Shown here piece by piece: positions 18,357-25,330 of a stretch of 64,000 nt of DNA. The stretch is from Flavipsychrobacter sp. (GTDB taxonomy: Bacteria > Bacteroidota > Bacteroidia > Chitinophagales > Chitinophagaceae): positions 1 through 64,000 of the forward strand of contig JAFIGV010000019.1 in assembly GCA_017849575.1 (NCBI GenBank), written 5' to 3'. The position numbers and the translations under genes were made by a program. The notes under the pieces were generated by a model that saw only the letters and a list, made by a program, of their open reading frames with translations, had not been told where the DNA came from and made no database searches. Position 1 is the first letter of the stretch; every line of letters starts with the position of its first letter.

Positions 18357-21300
18357 ATGATTCAACAACTATCTGTGAAAGATTTTTGGAAATCGCCCTG
18401 GACACTACGACCGAAAATTTCCGTGCTGGGAACCGTCATTCTTTTGTGCTGTATGCTAACCGGCTTGCCGGTGTTGGCGCAGCAGCACACTGTAAGCGGT
18501 TTTTCACCAAGTGCGGGCTATGCGGGGGAGACCATTACGATTTCTGGCACCAACTTTAGTAGCATCACCGGGGTGAGCCTGGGTGGCGTGGCGGCGGCTT
18601 CCTACAGTGTGGTATCGCCGACAAAGATTACCGCAGTTATCGCGGCCGGCGCCTCAACGGGTCCGGTGTCTGTCACCAAGTCGGGCGTTTCGACGGCCAC
18701 AGTGAATGCATCAAGCAATCTAAACTATCTGTCGCTGCCTACGGTGACCAGCATTGTAACCGATCACGGAGGATTTTGGAATACCAATACTACAGTGAAC
18801 AATGCCGTTTATCCGGATAGTGCACACAATCTGCTTTCCTTCACCTACGGGGGCATTACCTATTCTACAGGGTTAAAAGACAATACCCTTGTCAATGGAG
18901 GGGTGAGTTACACCCCCGGCAACTGGAAGGCGCTGCCCGCTATACTGTCGGGCAATACCTCCGGCGCAAGCCTTTTTATTGCTACCGGCGCAAAGATGGA
19001 TGGAAACCTCTACAATGGTTTATACACCCATCCTGCCATCAAAGATCTTACGATTCAAAGTGTGCTTTCTGACGGACTTGGAGGTCTGAATCTTGGCTCC
19101 GGGTACACCAACCTTCCCGCCACGGCAACCTCTTCATTTAATATTTACAATGTGGTGCCGGGTAAGATAACGGACAATGAACCCGATATCCTGGTGACGC
19201 AGATTGCGGATCCGCCCTCCGGTACCATCGATATTTACCAGTTTGTAGATGCGAGCAACAATCCTGTGGGTAATTCTATAGCTCAGGACCTGAGTAAAGT
19301 GCCGCCGTTGGGTACATGGTACCTCGATCTGTTTTCGGTGCCCGCAGGTGTGCCTGTGGGTACAGCAAAGCCATCGGCGGTGAGCAGCTCTATGACTACC
19401 CGGAACATCCGGCTGGTTGCCTACCGGCTGTCTGACTTTGGAATTACGGCGTCCAACTATACGCAGATCAAACAGTTTAAGATCACTCCGTCCGGTACCA
19501 GCGATGTGGCATTTGTTGCCTACAATGCCAATGCGATCAATGTGCCTCCGTCTATAACCCAAAATACTACTGCAACCAGCAGTGTCATTTGTGCCTCAGG
19601 CGGTAATGCCTACCTTGCGGTAACTGCGATTTCGGCAGCCGGCGGAACCCTTAGTTATTCCTGGGAAGTATCAACCGACAATGGAAACTCCTGGTATGCA
19701 ATAAGCGATAACAGCACCTACTCAGGCAGTGCCACCGATGCACTTTCTATTACCAATGCTACCTCAGGGCGGCAATACCGGGCAACGGTAACAGAATCCA
19801 TCTCAAACTACAGCTCGAAAAGCTCAGTATTTACAATCACCACCGCAGCCGGATCGGCGCTGGGCGGAACCCTGAATCCCACGGCTACAGTTTCCAATTG
19901 CCTTAATGCAACTACGGGAACAACTTCACTCTCTGTATCACCCACCGGGGGTACAGGCAGCTATAGCTATCAGTGGTTGTCCAGTGCTACCTCCGGCGGC
20001 ACTTATGCGGCCATACCGGGTGCTATATACAGCAGCTATAGCTTTCCGCTGAGCACAGCAGGTACTACCTACTATAAAGTGCAAGTCCTGAGCGGGTGTT
20101 ACAGCAACACGTCTTCTGCCTCAGCAGTTACCCTCTCGGGAGAAAGTATCACGGGTGTCACCAATGGTGTTGTATGTGCTCCCGGGTCGGTTACACTGGG
20201 TGCTGCCGCCACGGGTGGAACGATCAACTGGTATGCTACCAACAACTCGGGCACGGTATTGCAAACTGGCAACAGCTATTCACCTACGGTTTCGGCTTCT
20301 ACCACCTATTTCGTAAGCGTCACTTCCGGGGGCTGTACCTCCGCGCGGGTGCCGGTAACTGCTACAGTGGCTAATAACATCACTATTGACAGCAGCAACA
20401 CGCGCATTACCTATGCCACCGATGTCTGCTCAGGCTCGGCATCAAATGTGGTAGTGGCCACTACTGCCCTTGCCAATGGAACCTATACCGTAACCTATGA
20501 TGTCAGTGGGGCCAATACGATTACGAACGGCACGGCAACCATGACCGTGAGTGGCGGAAACGGAAGCTTTTCCACCGCGGCACTCAATAACGTAGGCAGC
20601 AATTTGCTGAAGATTGTGTCGGTGACTTTAAATAGCTGTACGGTTACAGCATCGAATGCAAATAGTTATCCGGTGGTGGTAAACAGTGGTGCACCAGATG
20701 CCAGTAACTTTTCTATTTCGGTAGGCAATGGCTGCTCCAATGCCAATGCCACCGCTACGATTTCCAGCACGACACTCGCCTCCGGCAATTATACCGTCAA
20801 TTATTATGTAACCGGAGATAACTCGGTTGCTGTGACAAGTGCACCGGTGGTGTTCACGGCGGGAAACCCGGGTACAGGAACCTTTCAACTGCCACTACTG
20901 GGAAATGCGGGGAGCAATAACACGCTCACCATCACGACAGTGGCGCTGACCAGCTCGCCAGCCTGTGCCGCTACACTCAATCAAAGCAGCAATAGCTTTA
21001 CGAACAGCATCCTTCCTGTGGTGGACGCCGGATCGCCGCGCACCATGTGCGCCAGTGCTGTATCCATCACCCTCGGTCCTGGTGCCGATGCCAGCAATTA
21101 TGACGCGCTGACCTGGAGTACCAGCGATGGTACCGGAAGTTTTTCCAACAACACTACCGCTGACGCACTGACTACGGCAGCCTATACACCCAGCGCGGCG
21201 GATATCTCTGCCGGCAGCAGATTGTTGACCCTTACCGCAACAGGCAGTACAGGATGTGCCAATGTTGCGCAAACCGTATCCCTGACCATTAAGAGCGGAT

Positions 21301-23504
21301 ACATCTGGTACGGTACCACCAGCAGCAACTGGAATACCGCTTCCAACTGGCAGTGCAATGATGTGCCTACTCCTGGTGCTAACGTTACTATTGTAGCCAG
21401 CCCGCCCCATCAACCTCAGATACAGAATGATGTGGAGGTAGGCAATATCGTATTTGGCAGTAACAGCTATGTAGATCTGAACGGAAGCGAATTCAAAATC
21501 AGCGGCGCAATAACGGGTACCCCAACGTTCAAGTCCACGAGTACCTCGTCACTGGTATTTAGCGGTACCAACAACGCTACCTACTATTTTGCGAGTGGCA
21601 GTGGTAACAATAACATCGGCAACCTCACGGTAAACGCCCCGGGGGTAACCATCACTCAGGGCGCAGACACCATGATTGTGCATGGTACCGTGTCGGTAAC
21701 AGCCGGCGTGCTGAACCTGAGCGCCAAAAATGTACGCCTGAAATCGGTGGCCGCTTATACCGCACGAATAGCAAGGATAACAGGCGCAATTGTCAATGGA
21801 TCAAACCTCACGGTTGAGCGCTTTGTCCCCGCAAAGCCCGGACGCAGATGGAGCTCCATGGCTTGTCCGGTAAATGCTTTGCTGAGTACAAGCTGGCAAC
21901 AGGATATTCATATTACCGGTCCGGGAACCGGTGGAACAGCCTGCAACAGCTACGCAACCAATATGCAACCGGGCACGTACACCAATGGCTTTGATGCCAC
22001 GCAGACCAACGCCAATTCATTTTATTATTATGCCAACAATAGCTGGGTAGCGATACCGAACACCAACAGCACCAATCTGGCACCCGGTGTGGGATACTAT
22101 GTAAACGTGCGCGGTGACCGCAATACTTATGGCTGCCAGTTGCTGCAATACACCAATTCACAAACCGGAGGGGTGCCGACCTATGATGCTACAGTAAAAG
22201 CAACAGGAGCACTCACCAAGGGAAATGTGACCGTAAATGCCACCAATACAGGCTACTGGTTTTTAGGAAATCCTTATCCCTGCGAAATAGACTTCAATAG
22301 TTTTTATGCCGAGAACAGCGCCAACATTTCACAGATGTACTGGCTTTATGATCCGGCCAATATTAGCGGCAACTATATGACGTGGGACGGCACTAATTAT
22401 GCCGGAGCCGCTGCAGGATATACGAACCATGAGCTAATAGCTTCAGGTCAGGGATTCTTTGTAAATATCACCACCACGGGCAGCCTTACCTTCCGTGAGA
22501 GCCACAAGTCTTCTACGTATCAGTCGGGCGGGTTCAAAACGACTACCAGCAATGATAAAATCCGTATCAACATCTACAAAGCGGGAGATACGTTGAAACA
22601 GGATGATGCACTGGTGGTTTTCGACCGGGACAGCCTGAGCGCGAATACGGCATTGACCGCTTTCGATGCAAAAACACTGAATGCAGGCGATGTGTGGGTG
22701 GCTACGATGAAAGGCGCTGATAAACTGGCCATTCAAAAACGATATGAAAGTTATGCACACGATACGGTGGATGTATTTGCCTATGTAGCCAATGCGGGCA
22801 ATTACAGTTTTGACTTTACCGACATCAGTCTTGCAGGTACGGTTTATCTGCAGGATAATCTCACAAATACGATGCAGGACCTGGCTGTCAACCCTCAGTA
22901 TGCTTTTAGCGTAGCCGCAGCAGGAAATGTACAAAACCGTTTTCGTCTGCTTTTCGACAACAACAGTCCGCTGGCAAGAGAAGAAGTAGTACTTACAGGT
23001 TATAGCCACGATGCCCGCGCGCACCTCAACTGGCACCCTGCCACACCGGGCAACTACACACGCTATTCGGTACAGTCTTCAGATGATGGCACCGTATTCC
23101 AAAGCATAGAGACGATGGCTGCGCATAATGAGCAGGCCGACAATCAATACTACTATACCGATGCTACGGAGCTGACCGGTAAGACCCGCTTCTACCGTGT
23201 AAAGGCCATACGGCCCGACGGAAGTGCTGCCTATTCGCACGTGCTGGCTTTGGGAATTAACACCGCTCCGGTTGCTGCATTCAGGATGTATCCGAATCCG
23301 GTATCCGACGAACTGCATGTAAGTTTTTCCGGAGACGTGGGCCATGGATATATCCGGATCATTAGCTCTTCTGGCGTACAACTCGTGCGGGTTGCTCATT
23401 CCGGAGCAGACCTCAGTATCAACACGAAGCAGCTTCCGCGTGGAGCCTACATCGTAGAAGTGACCGGCGACGGATTTCGACAAACACAACCATTAATCAA
23501 ATAA
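18357..23504 (+). CDS. Giant T9SS-secreted adhesin-like protein (IPT/TIG and Ig-like domains)
   Basis: A 1715-residue surface protein. The long n-region is followed by a hydrophobic signal ending GLPVLAQQ (about 24-43). Residues 45-111 form an IPT/TIG domain (HTVSGFSPSAGYAGETITI). Several Ser/Thr/Asn-rich Ig-like modules follow (about 400-970), including two tandem copies of about 110 residues with the pattern LANGTYTVTYDVSG / LASGNYTVNYYVTG. From about 980 (IWYGTTSSNWNTASNW) there is a beta-helical section. The last 75 residues, from FRMYPNPVSDEL, form a T9SS type A sorting domain. No catalytic site is seen. The start codon sits against a hairpin, and the next gene is 21 bases downstream. 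Confidence 0.9.
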   Translation: MIQQLSVKDFWKSPWTLRPKISVLGTVILLCCMLTGLPVLAQQHTVSGFSPSAGYAGETITISGTNFSSITGVSLGGVAAASYSVVSPTKITAVIAAGASTGPVSVTKSGVSTATVNASSNLNYLSLPTVTSIVTDHGGFWNTNTTVNNAVYPDSAHNLLSFTYGGITYSTGLKDNTLVNGGVSYTPGNWKALPAILSGNTSGASLFIATGAKMDGNLYNGLYTHPAIKDLTIQSVLSDGLGGLNLGSGYTNLPATATSSFNIYNVVPGKITDNEPDILVTQIADPPSGTIDIYQFVDASNNPVGNSIAQDLSKVPPLGTWYLDLFSVPAGVPVGTAKPSAVSSSMTTRNIRLVAYRLSDFGITASNYTQIKQFKITPSGTSDVAFVAYNANAINVPPSITQNTTATSSVICASGGNAYLAVTAISAAGGTLSYSWEVSTDNGNSWYAISDNSTYSGSATDALSITNATSGRQYRATVTESISNYSSKSSVFTITTAAGSALGGTLNPTATVSNCLNATTGTTSLSVSPTGGTGSYSYQWLSSATSGGTYAAIPGAIYSSYSFPLSTAGTTYYKVQVLSGCYSNTSSASAVTLSGESITGVTNGVVCAPGSVTLGAAATGGTINWYATNNSGTVLQTGNSYSPTVSASTTYFVSVTSGGCTSARVPVTATVANNITIDSSNTRITYATDVCSGSASNVVVATTALANGTYTVTYDVSGANTITNGTATMTVSGGNGSFSTAALNNVGSNLLKIVSVTLNSCTVTASNANSYPVVVNSGAPDASNFSISVGNGCSNANATATISSTTLASGNYTVNYYVTGDNSVAVTSAPVVFTAGNPGTGTFQLPLLGNAGSNNTLTITTVALTSSPACAATLNQSSNSFTNSILPVVDAGSPRTMCASAVSITLGPGADASNYDALTWSTSDGTGSFSNNTTADALTTAAYTPSAADISAGSRLLTLTATGSTGCANVAQTVSLTIKSGYIWYGTTSSNWNTASNWQCNDVPTPGANVTIVASPPHQPQIQNDVEVGNIVFGSNSYVDLNGSEFKISGAITGTPTFKSTSTSSLVFSGTNNATYYFASGSGNNNIGNLTVNAPGVTITQGADTMIVHGTVSVTAGVLNLSAKNVRLKSVAAYTARIARITGAIVNGSNLTVERFVPAKPGRRWSSMACPVNALLSTSWQQDIHITGPGTGGTACNSYATNMQPGTYTNGFDATQTNANSFYYYANNSWVAIPNTNSTNLAPGVGYYVNVRGDRNTYGCQLLQYTNSQTGGVPTYDATVKATGALTKGNVTVNATNTGYWFLGNPYPCEIDFNSFYAENSANISQMYWLYDPANISGNYMTWDGTNYAGAAAGYTNHELIASGQGFFVNITTTGSLTFRESHKSSTYQSGGFKTTTSNDKIRINIYKAGDTLKQDDALVVFDRDSLSANTALTAFDAKTLNAGDVWVATMKGADKLAIQKRYESYAHDTVDVFAYVANAGNYSFDFTDISLAGTVYLQDNLTNTMQDLAVNPQYAFSVAAAGNVQNRFRLLFDNNSPLAREEVVLTGYSHDARAHLNWHPATPGNYTRYSVQSSDDGTVFQSIETMAAHNEQADNQYYYTDATELTGKTRFYRVKAIRPDGSAAYSHVLALGINTAPVAAFRMYPNPVSDELHVSFSGDVGHGYIRIISSSGVQLVRVAHSGADLSINTKQLPRGAYIVEVTGDGFRQTQPLIK

Positions 23505-23525
23505 TTAACTGATTACAGAAGTACT

Positions 23526-23723
23526 ATGAAAAGATATTTCCTGCTCCTCGGAGCGCTGCTCACCCTATCGTTCTATGCCGCAGCAGGCCCCGGTTTCCCC
23601 GGCGGCGGTGGTTCGGCACCCGACGGCGAAGTGCCGATAGACGGCGGTGCGAGCTTGCTTGTGGGTGCTGCGGCCCTATATGGTGTGCGGAAGCTTCGGG
23701 CCAAACAAAACAAAGACCAATAG
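23526..23723 (+). CDS. Small PID-CTERM-like exported protein
   Basis: A 65-residue protein with a cleavable signal (MKRYFLLLGALLTLSFYAAA), a short Gly/Pro linker (GPGFPGGGG), then APDGEVPIDGGASLLVGAAA and a basic tail (VRKLRAKQNK). The PIDGG motif, followed by a short hydrophobic helix and a basic cluster, matches the PID-CTERM sorting-signal family of Bacteroidota, a PEP-CTERM-like arrangement. Almost nothing remains besides the two signals. It lies 21 bases after the giant T9SS gene and before a terminator, so both are probably on one transcript. The processing enzyme is not in the window. Confidence 0.75.
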   Translation: MKRYFLLLGALLTLSFYAAAGPGFPGGGGSAPDGEVPIDGGASLLVGAAALYGVRKLRAKQNKDQ

Positions 23724-23733
23724 CATCAGAAGC

Positions 23734-23767
23734 GAGGCTGTCTCCAAAAAGGCAGCCTCCTTTTTTT
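23734..23767 (+). terminator. Rho-independent terminator
   Basis: A nine-pair stem GAGGCTGTC/GGCAGCCTC (one T-G wobble) with an eight-base loop is followed by seven Ts. It closes the transcript of the giant T9SS gene and the PID-CTERM-like gene. Confidence 0.85.
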
Positions 23768-23830: not shown

Positions 23831-25330
23831 GTGTCGTTAAAGAAACTCGCAGGTCAGACCATGTGGTACGGATTAAGTTCCATCGCTGCCCGCTTCCTCA
23901 ATTACCTGCTCACACCCTATCTCGTTGGCAAACTCACCGCAGCAAACTATGGCGAAATGAGCCTTGTGTATGCCTGCATACCCTTTCTGAATGTGGTTTT
24001 CACCTACGGAATGGAGACAACCTATTTCCGATTCAACAACAACGGATCCGACCGGGCAAAAGTGTATAGTACCGGCAGCCTTTCCCTGATCATGACCACG
24101 AGCATCCTCACAACGGTGCTGCTGCTGGGGCGCGATTATTTTGCCGAAGCCCTGCGCTTGCAAAGTCACCCTGAGTTTATTACCTGGGCTGCGTGGATCA
24201 TCGCGCTCGATACGCTGACCACCCTGCCCTATGCTATGCTGCGCAACAACGGCCGGCCCAGGAAATATGCATTTATCCGCCTATCCGGCATTCTGATCAA
24301 CATTGGCTTCACCTTTTTCTTCTATTCCGTGCTGCCTGGCATTGCCCGTTCGCAACCCGATTCGATGCTTGCCGGCTGGTATGATCCTTCGCTCGGTGCC
24401 GGATATATCATCATTGCCAACCTCATACAGTCGGGTATTACTTTGCTGCTGTTGCTGCCGGAATTTTTGTCGGTCAAACTTGCCTGGGACAAGAAGCTTT
24501 GGAAACAAATGATGCTGTATTCGCTGCCCATCATGATTGCCGGCTTTGGTGGGATGATCAATGAAACCTTTGATCGTATCATGCTCAACTGGCTGGCGCC
24601 CGTGGGCAGTAAAGAAGAAGCAAAAGTGATGGTAGGAATTTATTCGGCATGCTATAAACTATCTATTCTGATTACGCTTTTCGTTCAGGCTTTTCGCTTG
24701 GGTGCCGAGCCGTTTTTCTTTCAGCAGGCGGCAGGCGAAGATGCACCGAAGACCTACGCCAGAGTAATGCGATATTTTGTGCTCACCGTGTGCACCATGT
24801 TTTTGGCCGTCACACTTTTTATGGATATATGGAAATGGTTTATCCCGAACAAGACCATGTGGCAGGGCCTTGGCGTAGTGCCTGTATTGTTGCTGGCCAA
24901 CATCTGTCTCGGTATCTACTACAATTTGTCCATCTGGTACAAGATTTCCGGCTCTACACGGCCTGGTGCCATCATCACATTTGTGGGGGCGGGTATTACC
25001 CTGCTCATCAATTTTATTTTCATTCCCTACTTTGGTTATGTAGCCTGTGCCTGGGCTACGCTGGTCTGCTACGGCAGCATGATGGTGATCTCTTACCTCT
25101 GGGGGCAAAAAGTATATGCCGTACCCTATGATCTTCGAAGTGCCGGGGGGATTTTTCTGGCTATGATGCTCGTGTTTTTTGCCTTCACAGGGTTATCGCA
25201 CTACCTGACACCTGTTTCCCTTCGGCTTGCCGCAGGTGCGCTGGGCTTTTTGTTATTCCTCGCTTTTATTTTGCGAAGCGAAAGAGAAAATCTCTCAAAG
25301 CTTCCCGGAGTAAGAAAATTTCTGCGCTAA
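23831..25330 (+). CDS. Oligosaccharide flippase / polysaccharide biosynthesis protein (MOP superfamily)
   Basis: A 499-residue protein with about 14 membrane helices. The N-terminus SLKKLAGQTMWYGLSSIAAR is strongly typical of Bacteroidota lipopolysaccharide flippases (KLAGQT-YGLSSI-R), which supports the GTG start at 23831. An in-frame TAA lies directly before it, so no upstream start is possible. It should translocate lipid-linked oligosaccharide or a related lipid. It is monocistronic and separated from the main polysaccharide operon, so it may serve another glycan, such as O-antigen or glycoprotein glycans. Confidence 0.88.
   Translation: MSLKKLAGQTMWYGLSSIAARFLNYLLTPYLVGKLTAANYGEMSLVYACIPFLNVVFTYGMETTYFRFNNNGSDRAKVYSTGSLSLIMTTSILTTVLLLGRDYFAEALRLQSHPEFITWAAWIIALDTLTTLPYAMLRNNGRPRKYAFIRLSGILINIGFTFFFYSVLPGIARSQPDSMLAGWYDPSLGAGYIIIANLIQSGITLLLLLPEFLSVKLAWDKKLWKQMMLYSLPIMIAGFGGMINETFDRIMLNWLAPVGSKEEAKVMVGIYSACYKLSILITLFVQAFRLGAEPFFFQQAAGEDAPKTYARVMRYFVLTVCTMFLAVTLFMDIWKWFIPNKTMWQGLGVVPVLLLANICLGIYYNLSIWYKISGSTRPGAIITFVGAGITLLINFIFIPYFGYVACAWATLVCYGSMMVISYLWGQKVYAVPYDLRSAGGIFLAMMLVFFAFTGLSHYLTPVSLRLAAGALGFLLFLAFILRSERENLSKLPGVRKFLR

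Follow-up and report, generated by a model that had tools for sequence, protein, structure and literature searches.

A PID-CTERM micro-protein encoded directly behind a giant T9SS cargo gene in Flavipsychrobacter sp.

The closest described counterpart of the gene analysed here is a set of NCBIfam models, NF046080 (PID_CTERM), NF046081 (exosortase X, XrtX) and NF046082 (XrtX-associated membrane protein), whose consecutive accessions suggest that the curators see one system. As PID-CTERM, XrtX, the XrtX-associated protein and exosortase Y (XrtY, NF046083) are all named there, the family, and probably its pairing with an enzyme, is known to the curators; nothing on T9SS neighbours or very short substrates was seen in the first three models. 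In the PEP-CTERM/exosortase (EpsH) system, a short motif, a hydrophobic segment and a basic tail also co-occur with an exosortase. Another exosortase of the same phylum is XrtF (Fjoh_1448) of F. johnsoniae. According to passages of PMC10936215, XrtF mutants lose sand colonisation, the XrtF substrates are unknown and it is an open question which substrates Bacteroidota exosortases have, the last being said of F. johnsoniae. A passage of PMC7468200 describes the compound onto which exosortases join their substrates as unidentified. MYXO-CTERM and GlyGly-CTERM/rhombosortase are described as combining a tripartite C-terminal tail with an intramembrane processing enzyme. For T9SS type B cargo, a passage of PMC12618676 describes a helper gene of its own, that of a PorP/SprF shuttle, directly downstream of the cargo gene. 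In the open-licence literature, no paper was found on PID-CTERM, on T9SS-exosortase gene pairing or on an exosortase in Hymenobacter, and the conserved pairing with T9SS cargo is here taken to be the new part.

The mini-gene studied lies in a window of 64,000 nucleotides, by which the whole stretch of DNA analysed is meant (positions 1 to 64,000 of contig JAFIGV010000019.1, assembly GCA_017849575.1). Its features are as follows.

18357..23504, + strand: giant T9SS cargo gene, 1715 amino acids, with Ig-like (Ig_7) domains
23286..23486, + strand: C-terminal T9SS sorting domain (PF18962) of the giant gene, 40 bits, over cut-off
23526..23723, + strand: PID-CTERM mini-gene, 65 amino acids (ORF translation and NF046080 match)
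23526..23585, + strand: predicted signal peptide, residues 1–20, with cleavage predicted between AAA and GPG (a simple rule of our own, not a trained predictor)
23586..23636, + strand: predicted mature stub, residues 21–37, up to the P of PID (placed by the cleavage rule)
23631..23705, + strand: PID_CTERM sorting tail with PIDGG motif, hydrophobic segment and basic residues (NF046080)
23734..23759, + strand: terminator-like hairpin with T run (1 found, shuffle mean 0.8)

The upstream protein of 1715 residues ends in a T9SS sorting domain as T9SS cargo does, and a scan of the whole protein placed PF18962 over its cut-off of 27 at residues 1644–1710 (E 8.1e-8, 32.9 bits). The stop codon of its gene is separated from the start of the mini-gene by 21 bases. 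One sigma-70-like promoter match was found at 23477–23505 (shuffle mean 0.8); neither this match nor the hairpin is beyond chance. After the hairpin comes a polysaccharide flippase-like gene (PF01943, window 23831–25330, + strand).

The 65-residue protein begins with a signal peptide, continues with a stub of about 17 residues rich in Gly and Pro and the PIDGG motif, and ends in a hydrophobic segment and a basic tail. Its N-terminal signal peptide, MKRYFLLLGALLTLSFYAAA, was recognised by eye and with the simple rule rather than a trained predictor. The protein has two hydrophobic segments and no cysteine. NF046080 was its sole NCBIfam match at E up to 10, with 42.5 bits against a cut-off of 26 over all 25 model positions (residues 36–60 of 65). 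Judged from its sequence, the ORF at 23526–23723 is a real PID-CTERM protein. The first-pass annotation had read a PIDGG sorting-type tail behind a signal peptide and a short linker; the NF046080 score bore out the tail, and the signal peptide and linker were read again in the ORF by eye and with the simple rule. A chance origin of the tail was ruled out, as NF046080 had seven matches over its cut-off in this genome and none in 14 control genomes. Also ruled out were a lipoprotein (PF08139 LPAM_1, 16.4 bits, under the cut-off of 20; no cysteine) and a MYXO-CTERM protein, the motif of which is described as having an invariant cysteine. Different from both MYXO-CTERM and GlyGly-CTERM/rhombosortase, this system has an exosortase-family protein as its candidate enzyme. 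Compared with PEP-CTERM, PID replaces PEP and the stub is only about 17 residues long. The open frames among the NF046080 matches listed ranged from 22 to 144 amino acid residues in the order and from 29 to 183 in the phylum, with one of 995.

The genome of Flavipsychrobacter sp. (3.61 Mb, 32 contigs, 100% complete) contained an eighth NF046080 match below the cut-off. The first-pass annotation had proposed counting further PIDGG proteins in the genome, and the seven over the cut-off answer this in its favour. Five of them are intact and their surroundings can be read; of the other two, one is truncated at a contig end and the other sits in a frame interrupted by a stop. The broken one (contig C25, 159474–159542) resembles a decayed copy. 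The PID genes at C11:42364, C13:160572 and C29:59693 are near contig ends, and all 45 residues of the C29 piece are identical to the end of the C11 protein; thus, repeats around PID genes may break the assembly.

It had also been stated that no processing enzyme is visible nearby. This holds for the neighbourhood but not genome-wide, as two exosortase-family genes, one XrtX-like and one XrtY-like, were found elsewhere in the genome. The matching enzyme proposed for search therefore has candidates outside the window. The first protein (C1:198344–198742) scored 34 bits with PF09721, over the cut-off of 25.7, and the second (C8:146992–147378), encoded about 123 kb further along the contig that includes the window, scored 18.4 bits, below it. 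Both were over the cut-off of the general signature TIGR04178. The C1 enzyme was nearest to exosortase X (NF046081, 137 bits) and the C8 enzyme to exosortase Y (NF046083, 150.3 bits), and neither reached its curated cut-off (170 and 160, respectively). The C1 enzyme is called XrtX-like because it is under the NF046081 cut-off yet grouped with PID-adjacent enzymes in a quick tree; the C8 enzyme is called XrtY-like because it is under the NF046083 cut-off. Similar to the NF046080/NF046081/NF046082 set, this genome combines a protein over the NF046080 cut-off with an XrtX-like exosortase; it differs in that its enzyme is under the XrtX cut-off. Neither exosortase gene adjoins a PID gene, and by eye the XrtY-like gene sits amid glycosyltransferase-like genes. 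The protein of 131 residues encoded after the XrtX-like gene matched no NCBIfam model. In genome G006, the gene in the equivalent place matched NF046082 with 36.3 bits, below the cut-off of 75, and the four proteins aligned from that place were 14–30% identical to the 131-residue protein.

Co-occurrence of PID-CTERM and exosortases was assessed in 119 genomes of the order, searched with PID_CTERM at E 0.001 and with the XrtX model for exosortases, and in 247 genomes of the phylum, searched at E 1e-4; the two samples share genomes near that of Flavipsychrobacter sp. All 28 PID-positive genomes of the order and all 42 of the phylum carried an exosortase, against 50 and 77 exosortase-positive genomes, respectively. 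At genus level, such nesting under a random draw had a probability of 8e-8 in the order and 4e-15 in the phylum, relatedness being ignored. The order counts include one PID-positive genome under the NF046080 cut-off (G116) and one exosortase genome with a weak partial match of 22.4 bits (G083). The XrtX model also catches other exosortases, and only 1 of the 119 order genomes was over its cut-off. In the phylum, PID was present in 30 of the 31 genomes with XrtX over cut-off, the exception being G257, and in 12 of the remaining 46 exosortase genomes. Exosortase genomes without a PID match (22/50 in the order and 35/77 in the phylum) are explained partly by divergent tails that the model misses. 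G067 and G117, tallied as exosortase-only, do carry PID mini-genes, which score 16 bits and fall under the limit of the search; the genes there run T9SS-like gene, PID, protein of about 290 residues, exosortase. Thus, the exosortase-only tally is inflated and the tree of 72 exosortases carries two wrong labels. As to the comparison with XrtF, no PID match was found in the phylum genomes of group g71, the exosortases of which reach about 100 bits against the XrtX model.

In other genomes, the putative substrate and enzyme genes are also adjacent. At nine loci of the order (G008, G006, G064, G101, G116, G011, G022, G045, and G040), the exosortase gene starts less than 100 bases past the end of the PID gene or overlaps it. 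In a third set of 42 loci, named genomes that are mostly Hymenobacter plus Rufibacter, Pontibacter and MAGs and that were retrieved with three proteins of the Flavipsychrobacter genome, which favours similar tails, the exosortase gene is 77–285 bases downstream of PID at eight loci and 1042 bases at one more. The order T9SS cargo, PID mini-gene, exosortase occurs in some genomes. G040 (L072:5974–15195, − strand) has T9SS gene, PID, T9SS gene, PID and XrtY-like exosortase, all on one strand. Variants of the motif, PLNGG (L067:5562–5885) and PLNEG (L068:4866–5090), each adjoin an exosortase. One protein of 285–294 residues is encoded between PID and exosortase in G045 (second locus), G102, G067, and G117. 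Proteins of this length beside or between the two occur in one family of the order (L070:5720–6589, L073:5144–6001, L074:2333–3193, L111:3069–3953, and L119:2572–3438), and no NCBIfam model matched the two that were scanned (L070 and L111).

In the quick tree of 72 exosortases, which has several long branches, the XrtX-like enzyme of Flavipsychrobacter sp. fell into a starred set of 16 rows. This set consisted of 14 PID-adjacent rows, nine of which come from the named set and are PID-adjacent through their collection via PID, and of two rows from PID genomes. The XrtY-like enzyme grouped with three further enzymes of PID genomes, of which one is PID-adjacent. A second starred set had 19 rows, 18 of them from genomes in which PID had no match. 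All 72 aligned exosortases, including both enzymes of this genome, share one conserved C, N, R and H. Beside exosortases of the set without PID, proteins of about 272 residues are encoded (L112:2694–3512, + strand, and L130:2757–3578, − strand), which end in VPTMTQWG or VPTLGQWG plus a hydrophobic tail; the L130 protein had a weak IPTL-CTERM match (16.8 bits, cut-off 20.5) and the L112 protein matched no model. Another exosortase clade may carry another tail.

With a simple rule in which Gln at +1 gets a bonus, a plausible signal peptidase cleavage site was found in 113 of 118 mini-proteins. The resulting stubs, counted through the P of PID, had a median length of 18 residues, were at most 30 residues long in 103 of the 113 and contained 27% Pro and 22% Gly. 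Under this rule, the stub lengths fit the signal-only substrate that the first reading of the gene had envisaged. The first stub residue was Gln in 93/113, which is a favourable count because the rule rewards Gln at this position; the five stubs of the Flavipsychrobacter genome would start with Gly, Asp or Glu, and that of the window with Gly. According to a passage of PMC10653852, such N-terminal Gln is turned into pyroglutamate in this phylum. Within the mini-protein, conservation is highest in the tail; homologues lacking the C-terminal motif had been named as grounds for refutation, and relatives were found to retain it.

At four of the five intact PID loci of the genome (the window, C13 and two on C11), the immediate upstream neighbour is encoded in the same direction and has a C-terminal T9SS sorting domain over cut-off; the upstream gene of the fifth (C30) is on the opposite strand. 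PF18962 had 115 matches in this genome, 102 of them over cut-off, and the chance of four T9SS pairings in five is about 8e-6 if 3200 genes are assumed. No PID-like mini-gene was found downstream of 40 other T9SS genes examined among the 115.

For the larger samples, the gene immediately upstream of each PID was scanned over its last 110 residues, or whole if shorter. In the order, PF18962 was found upstream at 20 of 46 loci and TIGR04183 at 19 of 46 (four of 50 PID loci, whose contigs show no gene upstream of PID, were left out), and either domain occurred in 10 of 150 control genes of the same loci. In the phylum, with one locus per genome outside the order, PF18962 was upstream at 21 of the 27 scanned among the loci listed (30 listed, minus two from genomes of the order sample and one without an upstream gene). 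In the named set, the counts were 35/42 upstream and 7/150 in control genes of the same loci. The controls were drawn from 252 (order) and 233 (named) other genes, and the phylum set, having no controls of its own, was compared with the pooled controls (17/300). Fisher's p values, relatedness ignored, were 3e-8 for the order, 2e-24 for the named set and 9e-18 for the phylum; one phylum locus (L136) and one named locus (L186) hold an identical PID protein. The gene caller, our own, is crude and missed a T9SS gene upstream of L172, which is left out of the 35/42, as several T9SS-like ends recognised by eye are left out of the order count. The gaps between T9SS and PID genes were mostly shorter than 120 bases. 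Loci without an upstream Pfam T9SS match numbered 26/46 in the order, 6/27 in the phylum (among the loci listed) and 7/42 in the named set; thus, the pairing is common but not obligatory. By these sequence counts the gene order is conserved, and all three samples bear out the suggested association of T9SS genes with PID-CTERM genes. Given this recurring pairing and the matching exosortase in many Bacteroidota, the two surface-sorting systems look genetically coupled.

Seven presumed cargo proteins were scanned whole, and PF18962 was found in five; it was absent at E 0.001 from those of L069 and L085, which by eye had looked like T9SS proteins. Domains found across the seven were PATR, PKD, YDG, MBG, fn3, nidogen-like and CHRD, a repertoire in keeping with large surface proteins. 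At seven of the 46 order loci (assigned by eye as L076, L078, L079, L084, L089, L091, and L097), the upstream gene matches the DNA-binding domain of O6-methylguanine methyltransferases, and the PID stubs there are mostly Pro-rich.

All of this evidence consists of sequences and crude gene calls. We lean, with modest confidence, towards the mini-protein being an exosortase-processed micro-substrate that serves its T9SS cargo as a dedicated partner at the surface. Sequence comparisons support the sorting half of this reading well, and the gene order suggests the partner role. The mini-protein would be exported through Sec and lose its signal peptide to signal peptidase I, after which its hydrophobic segment and basic tail would retain it in the inner membrane. 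A cysteine-type exosortase, XrtX-like and perhaps also XrtY-like, would cut near PID/GG and hand the new C-terminus to a lipid or glycan acceptor in the envelope; what remains would be a peptide of about 17 residues rich in Gly and Pro. Together with the large T9SS cargo of the gene just upstream, this peptide would act in the matrix or at the surface; a subset of T9SS cargo would thus own an exosortase-sorted partner. A precedent for cargo followed by helper is the porP/sprF-like gene directly downstream of T9SS type B cargo (in a passage of PMC12618676). Different from type B, the cargo here is type A-like (PF18962, TIGR04183) and its neighbour is an exosortase-type substrate. Against the proposed partner role and processing stand the loci with no upstream Pfam T9SS match, the small part of T9SS genes involved, the exosortase genomes with no PID match, the position of both exosortase genes away from PID genes and the scores of both exosortases, which are under the curated cut-offs.

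Unlikely, but to be weighed seriously, is that the mini-protein is an exosortase substrate unrelated to the T9SS cargo, the gene order stemming from copying of a segment with T9SS tail and mini-gene or from co-regulation of surface genes. Many PID genes have no upstream T9SS gene, in agreement with the absence of a tie. The PID-linked T9SS tails on C13 and C11 are near-copies (score 360), and a third (C11b) scores 133 and 126 to them, the best scores against 40 other tails being 118, 117, and 116. However, the T9SS tail of the window scores 55, 51, and 72 with the other three PID-linked tails, compared with a median of 62.5 and a best of 98 with the 40 others, and the pairing extends across many families whose tails diverge. 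That segment copying alone produced the pairing is therefore unsupported for the window and partly supported for the three other loci. It is quite improbable that the protein is not cut at PID and stays a small inner-membrane protein, such as a chaperone or adaptor aiding the T9SS cargo or the exosortase: its shortness and two hydrophobic segments would suit this role, but the strict co-occurrence and adjacency with a processing-type enzyme and the conservation of the tail above all other parts argue against it. That the free stub N-terminus is the acceptor onto which the T9SS sortase PorU joins cargo, in the fashion of an oligoglycine acceptor, is very improbable and was disfavoured: passages of PMC7468200 describe T9SS cargo of P. 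gingivalis and T. forsythia as amide-bonded to a seryl or glycyl on the linking sugar, and the stub of the window would start with Gly, but most stubs would start with Gln, under a rule favouring it, and their amine would be blocked as pyroglutamate.

If the mini-protein is the exosortase-processed micro-substrate favoured above, it would be a natural one with a stub of about 17 residues, small enough for complete characterisation by mass spectrometry, the acceptor included, and its pairing with T9SS cargo would provide a direct, testable bridge linking two surface-sorting systems. More speculatively, and we are doubtful of it, both systems may share one anchor: PID stubs attached by the exosortase and cargo attached by the T9SS sortase would end up on one type of envelope glycan that bears an amino acid, and each stub would mark or prime the place for its own cargo. 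In that case, the PID mini-gene would be the coded half of a dedicated surface-attachment module that serves some of the giant T9SS adhesins, and it would offer a route to the unknown exosortase acceptor.
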